From positions 1 to 29,862 of IMG/VR virus record IMGVR_UViG_3300028287_000021: a stretch of 29,862 nucleotides of DNA; one strand, written 5' to 3'. Below are positions 5,769-10,728 of the stretch, piece by piece. Below the pieces are notes generated by a model, which was not told where the DNA came from, made no database searches, and was given only the letters and a program-made list of their open reading frames with translations. The translations under genes were made by a program, and so were the position numbers. Each line of letters begins with the position of its first letter. Position 1 is the stretch's first letter. The stretch comes from a virus.

Positions 5769-6203
5769 TTATGCGTACTTATTACACTCCTTCAACATTT
5801 CCTCTGCTAATATCAGCCTATCGGATAAATCTTTATTCATATCAACCAAATTAAGATTCTCTTCTTTGACTCTTAAGTACTTATCCATAAATACCTCGTT
5901 AGATTCATTAGCAAGATCCTGCTCATCTAAAAGAGTTTGTATTTTAGTTTTTAATCTTATATAATTTGATCTTAAACCTACATTTTGGCTTGACCAGTTA
6001 TCAAAATTCTGCAATCCCCATAAAACGGTAGTATGATCTTTGCCAACTGATTTACCTATTTGGGATAATGTGCTAAACGTATATTCCTTACATAGTTTAT
6101 AATATAAAGCTCTAGCCTCTACTATCTCCCTTTGTCTTCTTTTAGTATTAATATCTACTTTAGTACTTGATGTTACTAATTTCTCAATCGTTTCTATTTC
6201 CAT
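5769..6203 (-). CDS. Stand-alone DnaA domain IV-like DNA-binding protein
   Basis: 144 aa. Residues about 20-70 match the DNA-binding domain IV of the replication initiator DnaA: KRRQREIVEARALYYKLCKEYT, then LSQIGKSVGKDHTTVLWGLQNF with the signature DHTTV that contacts the DnaA box. The AAA+ ATPase domain of DnaA is absent; instead residues 85-144 look like a coiled coil rich in E, L and N. It may bind DnaA-box-like sites in host or phage DNA to direct replication, act as a regulator, or help packaging because it lies next to the terminase genes. It overlaps the preceding small gene by 20 bases. Domain identification is strong; role is inference. Confidence 0.8.
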   Translation of the reverse strand: MEIETIEKLVTSSTKVDINTKRRQREIVEARALYYKLCKEYTFSTLSQIGKSVGKDHTTVLWGLQNFDNWSSQNVGLRSNYIRLKTKIQTLLDEQDLANESNEVFMDKYLRVKEENLNLVDMNKDLSDRLILAEEMLKECNKYA

Positions 6204-6423
6204 CTTTTATTATTAATTTTATTTCTTTTAATGTTAAAAAATTACTTTCCTCTATTGCTTTAAGTATTCCTGCACAAGCTTCATACACCTCATCCTTTTC
6301 ATATATCTTTACAATTCTTTCCAGCTCATCCACAGAAACACCTTTGGAGATATCCAGTAAAGCTAATTTATAATATTCATCTATTAATTCTTTAACTAAG
6401 TGTTCCGGTGATGACATACTCAT
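6184..6423 (-). CDS. Small helical protein, function unknown
   Basis: 79 aa if started at 6423; a second ATG two codons later (MSSPEHLVKEL) is equally possible. The start overlaps the nuclease gene upstream by about 30 bases and its end overlaps the DnaA-like gene by 20, so the three are probably translated together. Predicted all-helical, acidic, with KIYEKDEVYEACAGILKAIEE in the middle. No domain recognised. Confidence 0.6.
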   Translation of the reverse strand: MSMSSPEHLVKELIDEYYKLALLDISKGVSVDELERIVKIYEKDEVYEACAGILKAIEESNFLTLKEIKLIIKDGNRND

Positions 6424-7429
6424 TTATTTGTTCGGAACGGTCAACAAAATATTTTTGGAATATTCTAAGACCGTACTCCACTTTATCTCTTCCAGAATTG
6501 TAAAAGCTTTCCTCCACATCCCATATTCCTAGATCACCTGATTTTTTATCTATTACAAAAAATTTAAAATCTTTATAATCTACCTTAAATAAATTACAAT
6601 AGATATAGACTTGAACATCATAGCCATATTTTTTAGATGCCCACTCGAATCCTTTTATATCAGAAGTAGTCTTCAAATCAGCTATATAATCAAAACCTAA
6701 TATATCAGCTTTGCCTCTAAAAGGGAAGCCATTTAATACGTCAAATGCTGGTACTTCAAACTTTGCTCCGCGAGTATATTCTTGCCATATATCATTTTGA
6801 AGTAAAGCATCCACCGTATACATAGCACGATCATATTCTTTCCTAGTATATACAAATTGAGCACTTCCTACCTCTTCTACCTTTTCTTTATACTTTTTAG
6901 TCACCGCTGATTGTACCTCCACAACATGGCATAATGAATCTATTTTATCCGGTTCTAATGCTGCTAAGTGTATTAGTCTGCCTATTTTAAATGCGCTACT
7001 ATCAGAATGGAAGTTCAGAGATCTAGCATAGCTTTTTGGTGAATCCAGTAAATATTTAATAGCTGAACTGCTTAAAGCATACTTACCAAGCTCACCGTAA
7101 TAAAAGCTATCATCATACATCTTACTAATTAATTCCTCCTTATTCCATACCTTTCCATTTAGAAGTTTAATCCTTTCTATCCTTTCTTTACTTTTTGTAT
7201 ATATGGATCTCATTTCAGATATAGGTATAAAACATGAATCAGGACCTTTAACAGAAGGTACTAGGTTTAATCTTAACGCCTCCAACTCCTGCTGGGTTTC
7301 GAATTTGTATTCTTTGTCGTTAATCACTATATTAACACCACCGCCTTTTAAAGCCCAATCCATGAATTCAATAGTTGGTGTTTTGAATGTTACATGTTTC
7401 CATTCTGGTTTCTTAATTACATCTATCAT
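6392..7429 (-). CDS. RecE/exonuclease VIII-like PD-(D/E)XK nuclease
   Basis: 345 aa. Residues about 115-345 show the PD-(D/E)XK exonuclease pattern of RecE-type enzymes: LSSSAIKYLLDSPKSY, a conserved His in RLIHLAAL (154), Asp in FRGKADIL (242), DLK at 251-253 and Gln273 in VQVYIY. Such enzymes resect double-stranded ends to give 3' single strands for an annealing protein; the ERF protein at 13693-14220 is the likely partner. The N-terminal 110 residues are an extra region of unknown role. The ATG overlaps the MazG-like stop as TAATG. Confidence 0.85.
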   Translation of the reverse strand: MIDVIKKPEWKHVTFKTPTIEFMDWALKGGGVNIVINDKEYKFETQQELEALRLNLVPSVKGPDSCFIPISEMRSIYTKSKERIERIKLLNGKVWNKEELISKMYDDSFYYGELGKYALSSSAIKYLLDSPKSYARSLNFHSDSSAFKIGRLIHLAALEPDKIDSLCHVVEVQSAVTKKYKEKVEEVGSAQFVYTRKEYDRAMYTVDALLQNDIWQEYTRGAKFEVPAFDVLNGFPFRGKADILGFDYIADLKTTSDIKGFEWASKKYGYDVQVYIYCNLFKVDYKDFKFFVIDKKSGDLGIWDVEESFYNSGRDKVEYGLRIFQKYFVDRSEQINEYVITGTLS

Positions 7430-7731
7430 TATTTATCCTTTACAAAAGTCCCATTTATCATTTTACCTGTTCTACCCGATATTTCAGAGTAAGCCCCTTC
7501 AATACAGGATTCTATTTTAGTACCGCATAAATGAGCCAAGTTGGTTAATACAACAACACAATCACCAATAGCATCTTCTATATCCAATCTATCCTTTTCT
7601 AGTATAGCTTTAGATAACTCCCCAGCTTCCTCCATTAGTTTTAGGTACTGCGTTTTGGGATCACCTTTTTCATAGATCCCTCTTTCCTTTGCCCAATCTC
7701 TTATTGGTTCTAATTCATTGTTTAAAAGCAT
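7429..7731 (-). CDS. MazG-like nucleotide pyrophosphohydrolase
   Basis: 100 aa. Contains the all-alpha NTP pyrophosphatase signature KLMEEAGELSKAIL (EExxE) followed by DIEDAIGDCVVVLTNLA (ExxD-like metal ligands), the single-domain MazG-like form. These enzymes hydrolyse (d)NTPs to monophosphates, and T4 uses a dCTPase of this fold to supply dCMP to its hydroxymethylase. It overlaps the end of the asparagine-synthetase-like gene by 17 bases. The substrate cannot be read from the sequence; dCTP is an attractive inference from the neighbours. Confidence 0.85.
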   Translation of the reverse strand: MLLNNELEPIRDWAKERGIYEKGDPKTQYLKLMEEAGELSKAILEKDRLDIEDAIGDCVVVLTNLAHLCGTKIESCIEGAYSEISGRTGKMINGTFVKDK

Positions 7732-9010
7732 AATTAAAGTATTTATTTGCGTTAGATTTATTCTCTTCTTTACTACCTATAGGTCTTAACGGTTTTTTAT
7801 CCGCGTCCACAAAAGGTATTTTATCCTTGTATATTTCTTTTAATATATTTTTACTAATCCTTTCACTTCTTTTCATTGTTAAGCATTTTTTAATTATTGG
7901 AGTTGATAAAAAAGGATTCCTACATTCTACAGTATTAGCCATAGAGCATCTATCTATTCTAACATGATGGTAATAAGGTAGCTCCTTAAAAACATCATAA
8001 TGGAATGTATCCTTTTTAATAGCCCTGGTGTATCCACCAAAAAGCTCATCACTACCATCCCCCGTTAGAACTGTATTTAAATTTAGCTCCTTGCATTTTT
8101 TAAATAAAAGATACTGAGGGATAACACTACCTAAATCGTAGCTATGTTCGTACATTCTAAAAACCGCCACCTTTTCCTTTTCCGTAATATCATTGCTAAT
8201 AAATATGGGATCTATACCAAAATACTTAGCCATTTTTTTACATTGATCCGTTTCCCCATTTTCTATTGATATAGGTGTGAATTCTATTCCATTTTTAATT
8301 AAATGGTAAGCTATTATAGATGAATCCAAACCACCAGAAAAAAGTAATCCAACTTTATTATATTTAGTTAATGATCTAGTTTTAACGGAATCATCTATTA
8401 ATTCATAAAGATTACCCTTATTAGATGGATCTTTTAAATAAGAATTTATATTATATATATTGCTAGACTTAAAAGCCATTTTAGAATTATATAGGTAAGT
8501 ATAAAAATCACCTGGAATACATCTTTGCACTCGGTGAAATTTAGTATTGGATGTCCCAAATTTAGGATCGGACATTATAATAGGGTTACCCAATAAAGGT
8601 TTTATTTCCGAGCATATTCCATTTTCATTATGGTAAAGTTGTTTTTTACCTAATGGATCAGTAAACATCTTAACTGATTTTTCCGTTACATAACACACAG
8701 CCCAAAAACCATCCCAATTTTTATATTCCGATTTAAATCTTTTGGATATAAAATTATCCTTAAACAAATCCCTTAAGTAATCCAAATCGCTACTGTATTT
8801 ACCAAAATCATTGTAATTAAATATTTCGCCATTAAAAAATATAAAACCATTTTTAACCTTTAAAGGCTGAACTAAATTAGTTTTATTACTGGACAGTGGT
8901 AGAGATGAGAAATGATATTTCCAACCATAAGCATCTCCCTTAAAATGCTGTACACCCCTATGACTGATTCCATTTGGTTTTTCTTTTTTAGTTATTTGTA
9001 TTCCGCACAT
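7715..9010 (-). CDS. Asparagine synthetase-like class II glutamine amidotransferase
   Basis: The start is set at the ATG at 9010 because the product must begin MCGI so that Cys2 becomes the N-terminal nucleophile; this gives 431 aa. The N-terminal Ntn glutaminase domain shows MCGI, SHRG, NGEIFN (60-65) and Asp75. The C-terminal synthetase domain has the PP-loop SGGLDSS (225-231), GDGSDELFGGY (317-327) and RCSMANTVECRNPFL. It is much shorter than bacterial AsnB (about 550 aa). The Arg that binds glutamine in the AsnB motif HERLSIVD appears replaced by Ser in FSSLPLSS. The gene overlaps the thymidylate-synthase-like gene by 23 bases. It may make asparagine, or amidate another substrate such as a modified base. 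Confidence 0.85.
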   Translation of the reverse strand: MCGIQITKKEKPNGISHRGVQHFKGDAYGWKYHFSSLPLSSNKTNLVQPLKVKNGFIFFNGEIFNYNDFGKYSSDLDYLRDLFKDNFISKRFKSEYKNWDGFWAVCYVTEKSVKMFTDPLGKKQLYHNENGICSEIKPLLGNPIIMSDPKFGTSNTKFHRVQRCIPGDFYTYLYNSKMAFKSSNIYNINSYLKDPSNKGNLYELIDDSVKTRSLTKYNKVGLLFSGGLDSSIIAYHLIKNGIEFTPISIENGETDQCKKMAKYFGIDPIFISNDITEKEKVAVFRMYEHSYDLGSVIPQYLLFKKCKELNLNTVLTGDGSDELFGGYTRAIKKDTFHYDVFKELPYYHHVRIDRCSMANTVECRNPFLSTPIIKKCLTMKRSERISKNILKEIYKDKIPFVDADKKPLRPIGSKEENKSNANKYFNYAFKQ

Positions 9011-9707
9011 ATTTTTTAATATAATATAAATCACTTTTAAAACAATGAAGACTTCCTATCCACATCATTAACTCACCCGATTCCATTCCTGATTTTTCAG
9101 CTACGTGCTGTAGTAATCTGTAGGTCATATATATATCATTCCTTAAATGCCTAACAGCGTCACAGCTACGAATATGATACGTGCAATTTAATTTTCCATT
9201 TTCCTTATAGAACCAATAACCTAAAGTGCACGGAACTCTTACATTATTATTACTTTGGTCCTCAGGATGCCAAACGGAAAGATATGCTTGTCTAGTATCA
9301 TTGTTACTTTTAAGCCTTTCTATTATATCATTTAAATCACCATACTTATATCTTAAACCCTCCAAATCACTACACCAATATCTTTCCATGTAGTTATGGC
9401 TAAACTTACCATCTTTTCTAAATAATTCATCATTATCAAATTTATCATAATAAGGCCAATTCCTATATTCCTTACCAGGATTAATTGGCTTACCCCCTAT
9501 TCTTTCTTGAAAATGATCCTCTGCCCATGGAATATTAGGATCCGTGTCTTCTTTTATATTATCTGAAAAACCTAAATTAACATATATATTTGTCACTTCT
9601 ACAAGTGGATTAGATTTATCTATTTCAATAGACTGCCAATTAGAGTTTTTGCTATCCGTATGATAGCTATATAGTTTGCTATAAAGTTGTTTTATTGTTT
9701 CCTTCAT
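8988..9707 (-). CDS. Thymidylate synthase family, probable dCMP hydroxymethylase
   Basis: 239 aa, close to the 246 aa of T4 gp42. Key features are DTRQ (Arg139), the catalytic Cys160 in RVPCTLGYWF, the phosphate-binding RSCD (180-183) and GSLH (218-221). Eleven residues after the Arg of RSCD, where thymidylate synthase has Asn177 that selects uracil, this protein has Asp191 (LRND). T4 dCMP hydroxymethylase has RSND...FRND and GSLH in the same places, and an Asn-to-Asp change is known to switch the family to dCMP. The likely reaction is folate-dependent formation of 5-hydroxymethyl-dCMP; 5-methyl-dCMP is the alternative. The neighbours are MazG-like and amidotransferase genes. Confidence 0.8.
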   Translation of the reverse strand: MKETIKQLYSKLYSYHTDSKNSNWQSIEIDKSNPLVEVTNIYVNLGFSDNIKEDTDPNIPWAEDHFQERIGGKPINPGKEYRNWPYYDKFDNDELFRKDGKFSHNYMERYWCSDLEGLRYKYGDLNDIIERLKSNNDTRQAYLSVWHPEDQSNNNVRVPCTLGYWFYKENGKLNCTYHIRSCDAVRHLRNDIYMTYRLLQHVAEKSGMESGELMMWIGSLHCFKSDLYYIKKYVRNTNN

Positions 9708-9996
9708 TTTCTATTATATCATTTTGTTCTGCTTTTATTCCTTCTTTATAATTATTTAATGCACCTATGTAAGCTACAGCATCCAATAAATTATCTTGTT
9801 TATGCGACCAGCTTTCCCTTGCCAGTTTTAATGCAATTTGCATATTATATAGATCCGTAATAGTTATTTCCTTAGAAGACATAATTGAAGCAATAGCTGC
9901 AGCTCTTCTGTTGCACTCACTAAAAGGCCCATACATTCTTTCTTTTTCTTCTGATCTTTTATTTACAATATTATTTGCTTCCTCCAGAATATTCAT
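9679..9996 (-). CDS. DUF6378-like protein
   Basis: 105 aa. The sequence RMYGPFSECNRRAAAIAS, then LYNMQIALKLARESWSHKQDNLLDAVAYIGAL, fits the small all-helical family known as DUF6378, frequent in phages next to nucleotide-metabolism genes; its function is not established. Its start overlaps the preceding stop as ATGA and its end overlaps the dCMP-hydroxymethylase-like gene by 29 bases, so it belongs to the nucleotide cassette. Confidence 0.7.
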   Translation of the reverse strand: MNILEEANNIVNKRSEEKERMYGPFSECNRRAAAIASIMSSKEITITDLYNMQIALKLARESWSHKQDNLLDAVAYIGALNNYKEGIKAEQNDIIENEGNNKTTL

Positions 9997-10181
9997 ATAC
10001 CAAAATTGTTTTTTCTAATTAACTGGGCAGCAGTTTTATTAAATTGTTTAACTCTTTGCCTATATATAGGATCGGTGCAATATTTTCTCATAGCAATAGA
10101 TCTTGTGCACTTGCCATATTTCTTTTCAAAATCATCCAACTGCTTAATTTTATCGCTTACCATTTTATCCGTTATCTCCAT
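9993..10181 (-). CDS. Small basic protein, function unknown
   Basis: 62 aa, MEITDKMVSDKIKQLDDFEKK, rich in K and R, helical. It has two Cys, no membrane segment and no recognisable motif; the basic C-terminal half (YRQRVKQFNKTAAQLIRK) could bind nucleic acid. It is coupled to the genes on both sides by overlaps of 10 and 4 bases. Confidence 0.6.
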   Translation of the reverse strand: MEITDKMVSDKIKQLDDFEKKYGKCTRSIAMRKYCTDPIYRQRVKQFNKTAAQLIRKNNFGI

Positions 10182-10303
10182 GCTCTGCTTTGTAATTCCT
10201 CATTGCATCTTTGGCGGAACGTTTCTAAATAATCTGTGTTGTTTACAATTTCCTGTAATTCCTTAATACTATAGGATCTATAAAATAATTCTTCGTATGT
10301 CAT
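10172..10303 (-). CDS. Mini-gene, 43 aa, function unknown
   Basis: The ATG at 10303 opens MTYEELFYRSYSIKELQE and ends LQSRAWR, overlapping the next gene by 10 bases. It is supported by tight overlap, the conserved intergenic motif 21 bases upstream and a protein-like composition. It may be the first gene of the nucleotide cassette transcript (10303 to 5769). Confidence 0.55.
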   Translation of the reverse strand: MTYEELFYRSYSIKELQEIVNNTDYLETFRQRCNEELQSRAWR

Positions 10304-10323
10304 ATCGTTTTTATTTATTACAA

Positions 10324-10341
10324 ATATAAACAATTATTTAA
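10324..10341 (-). promoter_or_regulatory. Conserved intergenic motif, copy B, with TAnnTTTG box
   Basis: Plus-strand ATATAAACAATTATTTAA. On the minus strand the adjoining sequence gives TATATTTG (10321-10328), an exact match to the Bacteroidota -7 box TAnnTTTG, 18 bases before the ATG at 10303. I see no good TTTG at -33 at the usual spacing, so promoter activity is uncertain. Confidence 0.4.
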
Positions 10342-10462
10342 CATCACTACTACCATCAAACACTTTTTTTTCTAATTTTTCTACTTTACCCAAAGCTACC
10401 ATTAATACTTGCTGACAAAGCTTAAGGTCGTGCTGCATTTTTACCAGAGTACTTTCTTTCAT
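10334..10462 (-). CDS. Mini-gene, 42 aa, coiled-coil-like
   Basis: The ATG at 10462 overlaps, as ATGA, the stop of the MazG-like gene. The product MKESTLVKMQHDLKLCQQ continues with a leucine-rich amphipathic helix and ends in an acidic tail. Its stop overlaps intergenic motif copy B. Function unknown; support is the tight coupling. Confidence 0.5.
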   Translation of the reverse strand: MKESTLVKMQHDLKLCQQVLMVALGKVEKLEKKVFDGSSDVK

Positions 10463-10728
10463 TTCTGATCTTTTATTTTTTGTATATATAAACACGCATC
10501 CATTAACTCTTCCTGTAGGTGATTTAAAAAAGAATAAAAATCATCAGGGCTATCATACAAGGTGGTACCATATTTTATAATACCATCTCTAGAACGCGAA
10601 TGGAATTTATTAACAACCCTTTGTACTATAGGATCTTTAGGTATGTTGTTATAGGAATACCCTGTAGCATCCGTAGACCATTTGCCATCTTCCATCATTT
10701 CATTATATTTTTTTATACTATCTCCCAT
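10459..10728 (-). CDS. MazG-like small protein
   Basis: 89 aa. The C-terminal half, VNKFHSRSRDGIIKYGTTL followed by FYSFLNHLQEELMDACLYIQKI, has the EExxDA helix of MazG-like nucleotide pyrophosphohydrolase folds as seen in many phage proteins annotated that way. Only one of the two usual metal-binding helices is obvious, so activity is uncertain. It heads, with a 59-base AT-rich gap before it, the stretch of nucleotide genes. Confidence 0.6.
   Translation of the reverse strand: MGDSIKKYNEMMEDGKWSTDATGYSYNNIPKDPIVQRVVNKFHSRSRDGIIKYGTTLYDSPDDFYSFLNHLQEELMDACLYIQKIKDQK

Follow-up and report, generated by a model that had tools for sequence, protein, structure and literature searches.

The 29,862 bases analysed here, referred to as the window, make up the whole IMG/VR virus record IMGVR_UViG_3300028287_000021, possibly a fragment, and carry a gene cassette in which a homologue of thymidylate synthase (TS) lies beside an asparagine-synthetase-like amidotransferase (AsnS). 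The window has a GC content of 32% and bears essentially all of its large genes on the minus strand. Because its terminase is ~50% identical to that of Flavobacterium psychrophilum phages, the virus is likely to infect a member of the Bacteroidota, probably a marine flavobacterium. The cassette consists of five overlapping minus-strand genes (6392-9996) in which neighbours share from 1 to about 30 bases, and transcription runs from a DUF6378 gene through the TS homologue, AsnS and a MazG-type gene to a PDDEXK exonuclease gene (Table 1). The overlap between TS and AsnS described in the initial annotation is present with either start of AsnS, that is, with the open reading frame (ORF) as listed, which has a GTG start and covers 7715-9034, or with the conserved MCG start at 9010, which would expose Cys1. 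Pfam and PHROG profile searches of the window ORFs scanned also agreed with that annotation in finding neither a glycosyltransferase nor a deoxynucleoside monophosphate (dNMP) kinase.

Table 1. Genes of the cassette and one neighbouring gene in the window.
Feature	Coordinates	Strand	Evidence and prediction
TS homologue, Asp type, 239 amino acids	8988..9707	-	PF00303, phrog_160, residue alignment, fold search; predicted to modify dCMP at C5
AsnS-like amidotransferase, 431 amino acids from MCG	7715..9010	-	PF00733, AsnB alignment, AlphaFold model, tree
MazG-type nucleotide pyrophosphohydrolase, 100 amino acids	7429..7731	-	PF03819, phrog_1992/715, metal motif
DUF6378 protein, 105 amino acids	9679..9996	-	PF19905; co-occurrence with AsnS beside TS
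PDDEXK / exonuclease VIII-like protein	6392..7429	-	PF12684 (71.4 bits), phrog_412
89-amino-acid protein, earlier called MazG-like	10459..10728	-	Unnamed PHROGs only; close relatives only

The TS homologue belongs to the thymidylate synthase superfamily, with a match to PF00303 at 60.1 bits (cut-off 24.3) and the catalytic cysteine in place, and was assigned to phrog_160 (E = 1.1e-36). It has 966 relatives among catalogued phages, every one of them below 60% identity. The protein was aligned with Escherichia coli ThyA, T4 gp42 (letters matching M37159 at 100%), an RB69-type enzyme and relatives. As the initial annotation had stated, Asp191 stands at the position of E. coli Asn177 (Asp179 in T4) and the RND and GSLH motifs are like those of T4 gp42; the longer motif that contains Asp191 reads RSCD..RND. 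Cys160 aligns with the catalytic C146 of E. coli, and the adjacent E. coli His147 is replaced by Thr161. The gp42-type residues comprise D191, C160, Y106 and W84 (T4 Asp179, Cys148, Tyr96 and Trp82), His221 is also present and, as in gp42, the protein lacks a C-terminal tail, ending 18 residues past GSLH. It does not qualify as a canonical dUMP thymidylate synthase, having Asp instead of Asn at position 177 and scoring 53.5 bits against the TIGR03284 cut-off of 108.35. Asp occupies the E. coli-177 position in all relatives in which this region is complete (more than 60 relatives aligned), so Asp191 was rejected as a sign peculiar to this phage; it marks a large phage family. In a selection for cytosine-modified DNA of environmental phages, residues 177 (Asp) and 147 (changed) were those that best separated modified from unmodified contigs (PMC8670742). 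The prediction that the TS homologue acts on deoxycytidine monophosphate (dCMP) is well supported, a hydroxymethyl group being the most likely product and a hydroxy or methyl group possible ones. This part of the cassette is a member of an already known kind.

A conserved protein of ~270 amino acids (X) precedes the Asp-type TS in the catalogued phages P744, Serbin, PMBT14 and FF47 (L250:4205-5038, L251:3171-3980, L252:3210-3998). It was annotated once as ‘pyrimidine hmase synthase’, lies in an operon with the order TMPK-dUTPase-X-TS-dCMP deaminase-PolA (TMPK, thymidine monophosphate (TMP) kinase) and is possibly a partner subunit of the Asp-type TS.

In a fold search, the AlphaFold model of the TS homologue (predicted local distance difference test score, pLDDT, 79.8) gave Z scores of 17-18 to TS and to the FAD-dependent dCMP hydroxylase AfhB. 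The match to AfhB (9iqu/9iqc; Z 17.5-17.6, root-mean-square deviation 2.5-2.7, 190-197 residues) was tied with that to TS, and it was there, among the top structural matches, that identity was highest (21-22%). AfhB and the RB69-type 5-hydroxy-dCMP synthase have a TS fold that acts on dCMP, and the RB69-type protein has an AED stretch in common with the cassette TS; in contrast, their sequence similarity to the cassette TS is low. RB69-type enzymes, which belong to the same superfamily, make 5-hydroxy-dCMP (PMC13390438). These findings would also suit a simpler explanation, namely that TS by itself carries out a plain C5 modification, giving 5-hydroxymethylcytosine (5hmC), 5-methylcytosine or, in the manner of RB69/AfhB, 5-hydroxycytosine, and that AsnS amidates a different molecule, for example a sugar acid or a peptide found on the virion or host surface. 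Exopolysaccharide and peptide amidotransferases do exist among AsnB relatives, and matched weakly in NCBIfam.

AsnS exceeds the Pfam cut-off for PF00733, at 98.4 bits, and when aligned with E. coli AsnB it shows both active sites intact, the glutamine amidotransferase site with Cys1, HRG and FNGEIFN and the ATP pyrophosphatase site with SGGLDSS and GDGSDE. Its AlphaFold model (pLDDT 90.8) matches E. coli AsnB (1ct9) over the whole length, with Z 36 over 396 residues. The two proteins differ in that AsnS is shorter, shows 22% identity in the structural alignment, belongs to a phage-only clade and reaches about half the NCBIfam equivalog cut-off for asparagine synthase (TIGR01536, 132.1 versus 267.1 bits). 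A tblastn search of 50,697 catalogued phage records gave no match to AsnS, and a distant member of its clade matched just 14 catalogued phage records, at 23-30% identity. In IMG/VR, 390 stretches encode AsnS relatives, although some of these may be distant AsnB-type proteins; among the best 80, identity is 35-97%. Against the bacterial chromosomes fetched, identity never rose above 30%. Trees placed phage AsnS apart from bacterial AsnB with a support of 100 in the Shimodaira-Hasegawa-like approximate likelihood ratio test (SH-aLRT), and of 98/95 after more divergent members had been added, the long-branch sequence L285 then falling outside. The low chromosomal identities, set against those of the viral loci, and the separate phage clade led us to reject the idea that AsnS is an ordinary host gene recently acquired. 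One relative (L039:8654-9994) has lost Cys1 (MSG), SGGLDSS (SGGLSS) and GDGxDE (GYGSSS) yet still adjoins TS; from these substitutions, it is probably a dead copy.

TS and AsnS might instead serve metabolic supply, as a working thymidylate synthase and an asparagine synthetase carried as auxiliary metabolic genes. Consistent with this, both proteins exceed the cut-offs of their Pfam families, and in other phages the Asp-type TS often lies beside genes for dCMP deaminase, dUTPase and TMP kinase. We nevertheless consider it very unlikely, since Asp replaces Asn177 in every member and Asp177 is tied to modified DNA in the published data (PMC8670742), the scores fall far under the NCBIfam cut-offs for thymidylate synthase and asparagine synthase, AsnS is strongly diverged from all bacterial AsnB, and one phage, G006, carries a separate canonical TS with FNIAS besides its Asp-type TS. 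The canonical TS of this 230-kb phage is in two separated pieces (L233, L239; G006:C1:220086-222191), perhaps split by an intron, and the Asp-type TS lies at 174 kb.

Overlapping genes in the arrangement DUF6378-TS-AsnS-MazG recur both in close relatives and in phages otherwise unmatched to the window. When the AsnS loci were made non-redundant and limited to those flanked by 3.5 kb or more on each side, 65 remained, and in 43 of these an Asp-type TS lies no more than 6.5 kb from AsnS. This fraction is not an unbiased frequency, the loci having been fetched with TS, AsnS or C5-methyltransferase-like (C5-MTase-like) queries. The remaining 22 loci form one large-phage clade, and those that were read have AsnS placed behind a P-loop kinase-like gene. 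In three of the longer records of this clade (G002, G006 and G011) an Asp-type TS is found roughly 67-114 kb from AsnS; the others are fragments, in which absence of a TS says little. Gene orders vary and include TS-AsnS, AsnS-TS-dUTPase-dCMP deaminase, TS-C5MT-AsnS, N4MT-TS-AsnS and AsnS-C5MT-N4MT-TS (C5MT and N4MT, the C5- and N4/N6-MTase-like families described below). DUF6378 was present in 20 of 21 TS loci with AsnS and in 1 of 29 without it (n = 50 with enough flank; Fisher p = 9e-12, inflated by relatedness) and, when AsnS is present, almost always directly adjoins TS. The conserved gene neighbourhood shows that TS and AsnS are functionally linked. This persistence of the pair across strongly diverged TS lineages and gene orders, together with the near confinement of DUF6378 to AsnS-bearing TS loci, makes it unlikely that TS modifies cytosine by itself and AsnS works on a surface molecule. 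In the large-phage clade, the product of the P-loop kinase-like gene that immediately precedes AsnS (L124:7411-7980, L127:7454-7996) is possibly a kinase for a modified nucleotide or base.

The initial annotation had proposed two MazG-like genes, of which the one at 7429-7731 is real. It matches PF03819 at 28.6 bits (cut-off 22) and keeps the metal motif E34 E35 xx E38 ... D53 xxx D57, which is invariant across 10 cassette members. From its sequence, the protein is predicted to remove a competing deoxynucleoside triphosphate (dNTP), presumably deoxycytidine triphosphate (dCTP), and a role as dCTPase is plausible. The MazG in L012:3876-4622 has an N-terminal extension (YYIYHIPSIRKIGCTNN...) resembling a GIY-YIG domain. 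The second gene, at 10459-10728, was rejected as a MazG: PF03819 gave no match, only unnamed PHROGs were hit (PHROG 32278), and hhalign against the MazG family gave a probability of 0.4%. Its product is a small conserved protein with 35 residues invariant among five close homologues, the gene accompanies the cassette in the closest relatives only, and it probably stands outside the cassette. The DUF6378 gene noted earlier was confirmed (PF19905, 41.2 bits versus a cut-off of 27.1). Its proposed kinship with MazG was set aside after hhalign found no link, small profiles making this a weak test. The PDDEXK exonuclease gene was adjacent in 12 loci, nearly all of close relatives, and its product probably serves recombination, not modification. 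Near the terminase, the window also encodes a stand-alone DnaA C-terminal (helix-turn-helix) domain protein (5769-6203), which is found near TS too in L034, L035 and L032.

An asparagine-synthetase relative that acts on a phage base is already known. In Synechococcus phage S-B43, the asparagine-synthetase homologue CmoY uses glycine to amidate 5-carboxymethylcytosine in DNA (PMC12783734, December 2025). The same study noted a further cluster of ligases that carry a glutamine-hydrolysing domain; soluble protein was not obtained for this cluster, which was left uncharacterised. The AsnS family may belong to that cluster. The CmoA-CmoX-CmoY system resembles the cassette in combining an enzyme that places a handle on the base with an ATP-dependent, amide-forming enzyme of the asparagine-synthetase family, and many cassette relatives have a C5-MTase-like partner with a basic residue at the site that binds the carboxylate of carboxy-S-adenosylmethionine (Cx-SAM). 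In contrast, CmoY has 271 amino acids and no glutamine amidotransferase domain, whereas AsnS carries its own, and the constant partner in the cassette is an Asp-type TS, which a profile search did not find in S-B43. The main text of PMC12783734 makes no mention of thymidylate synthase. That CmoY works on DNA also weighs against a surface molecule as the target of AsnS.

The C5-MTase-like family adjoins TS and AsnS in many loci, and an IMG/VR search with this family alone returned 39 loci, most of them holding AsnS and an Asp-type TS. Elsewhere, including in the close relatives L005 and L009, TS adjoins a member of an N4/N6-MTase-like family whose motif IV reads TPYP or FPYP in place of the usual letters. 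A carboxymethyl route as in S-B43 would accordingly have the C5-MTase-like enzyme use Cx-SAM and AsnS form 5-carbamoylmethylcytosine, with TS as a mere helper. AsnS and C5-MTase-like enzymes are indeed neighbours in most loci, and a Lys is found at the position of CmoX Arg350 (HhaI Asn304) in 33 of 33 aligned C5-MTase-like cassette proteins, as in the engineered M.MpeI N374K, which accepts Cx-SAM (PMC12783734). However, motif IV of these proteins is mostly H(P/T)(E/D/K)C, not SPPC, and motif VI is D(N/D)L, without the Glu of ENV; no MTase-like gene lies near AsnS in 16 of the 43 TS-linked loci; the cassette has a TS, of a type that S-B43 lacks; and the window record yielded no member of either MTase-like family, in a search whose alignments came from records with these genes but which included no positive control of its own. 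A search of 41 cassette records, the window among them, found no CmoA, the Cx-SAM synthase (the controls worked, and many records are fragments), and a Cx-SAM route would therefore require a host enzyme. With these searches, we rejected the idea that the window record conceals CmoA or an MTase-like gene, the carboxymethyl route was set aside as the main explanation for the window because no MTase-like gene is there, and we hold it to be improbable overall. In one C5-MTase-like cassette protein (L289:6807-8969), an intein-like insert (CIVSGDVPV... NCGNFS) interrupts the sequence immediately behind the catalytic PEC.

A decorating enzyme beside an Asp-type TS also has a precedent, an environmental phage carbamoyltransferase, linked to TS and shown to act on 5hmC (MetaGPA, PMC8670742). 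As in the cassette, an Asp177-type TS adjoins the decorating enzyme, and genes for dCMP deaminase and PRA-PH/MazG-like proteins are present; the difference lies in the cassette decorator, which is AsnS-like. A carbamoyltransferase was rejected for this role, the sole IMG/VR relative found sitting with a T4-like TS and no AsnS. With T4 gp42 and its dCTPase partner gp56, the cassette shares the TS fold, the Cys/Asp/Tyr/Trp active site, the missing tail and a pyrophosphatase nearby. Unlike T4, it has AsnS and no glycosyltransferase, and its TS belongs to another subfamily (phrog_160). This agrees with the earlier statement that any decoration must differ from that of T4; the conserved candidate for it is AsnS, an amidotransferase that the initial annotation had named in its title but left out of its mechanism.

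Taken together, we think it probable that the cassette modifies cytosine, TS setting a handle at C5 of dCMP and AsnS building an amide or amine on this handle. MazG, perhaps with DUF6378, would first remove a competing dNTP, most likely by hydrolysing dCTP to dCMP, as its residues and the published association suggest. The Asp-type TS would then act on C5 of dCMP, with 5-hydroxymethyl-dCMP as the most likely product and the 5-hydroxy and 5-methyl forms as alternatives, and the modified nucleotide would be phosphorylated and incorporated into phage DNA. Finally, AsnS would take ammonia from glutamine and, using ATP, adenylate a carboxylate or related oxygen on the C5 group to give an amide or amine, either on the nucleotide or on DNA. 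This last proposal draws on the enzyme family and fold of AsnS and on the CmoY precedent. In many relatives, the C5-MTase-like or N4/N6-MTase-like enzymes with altered motifs, which lie between TS and AsnS, could supply a carboxylated intermediate. The probable benefit would be evasion of host restriction. A cytosine-modification cassette, as first annotated, stands as the best reading, on the association of Asp177 with modified DNA and the conserved TS-AsnS pair, and within it TS may act as a hydroxymethylase.

Several points weigh against this pathway, the chemistry of which is predicted from its genes. Known members of the asparagine-synthetase family adenylate carboxylates, and 5hmC has none. 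In the window, the carboxylate might come from an MTase-like gene beyond the fragment or from an amino-acid nucleophile introduced via TS, or the target might not be a carboxylate; the absence of both MTase-like families and of CmoA, described above, counts here too. AsnS could also act on a substrate other than DNA. Within TS, one residue departs from T4 gp42 and a second may do so; in gp42, Glu60 activates methylene-tetrahydrofolate and Asp145 lies near the pterin. The Glu60 column falls near Pro60 in the sequence alignment, where the loop differs and Glu63 is the closest conserved acid, and Asp145 is replaced by Arg157, which is invariant in alignment A2. The operon that the Asp-type TS shares with TMP kinase, dUTPase and dCMP deaminase in many catalogued phages would fit a supply of dTMP as well, and the linkage tallies draw on sequences that are related to each other and come from loci retrieved with cassette genes as queries.

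Both the carbamoyltransferase beside an Asp-type TS (PMC8670742) and an asparagine-synthetase homologue that acts on a phage base (PMC12783734) are already known. The literature searched described neither TS paired with a glutamine-dependent AsnS, nor how broadly this pairing occurs, nor the C5-MTase-like partners of the Lys type, although an earlier mention is possible. The absence of AsnS from the catalogued phage records searched may explain why the cassette was missed. Phages defeat restriction and CRISPR through changed bases, and each new chemistry has yielded enzymes and sequencing tools. The TS-AsnS pairing is repeated across many unrelated environmental viruses, and we tentatively suggest, with less confidence than for the cassette of the window, that it represents a widespread phage pathway. 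In it, dCMP would receive a one-carbon handle from an Asp-type TS, and a glutamine-dependent AsnS, acting in many phages alongside a C5-MTase-like enzyme of the Lys type or an N4/N6-MTase-like enzyme, would produce an amide- or amine-bearing cytosine new to DNA. The cassette offers a concrete set of enzymes for expression and a clear test by mass spectrometry. If true, a single pathway would join the hydroxymethyl-type handles of T4 and MetaGPA phages with amide formation of the kind carried out by CmoY of S-B43.

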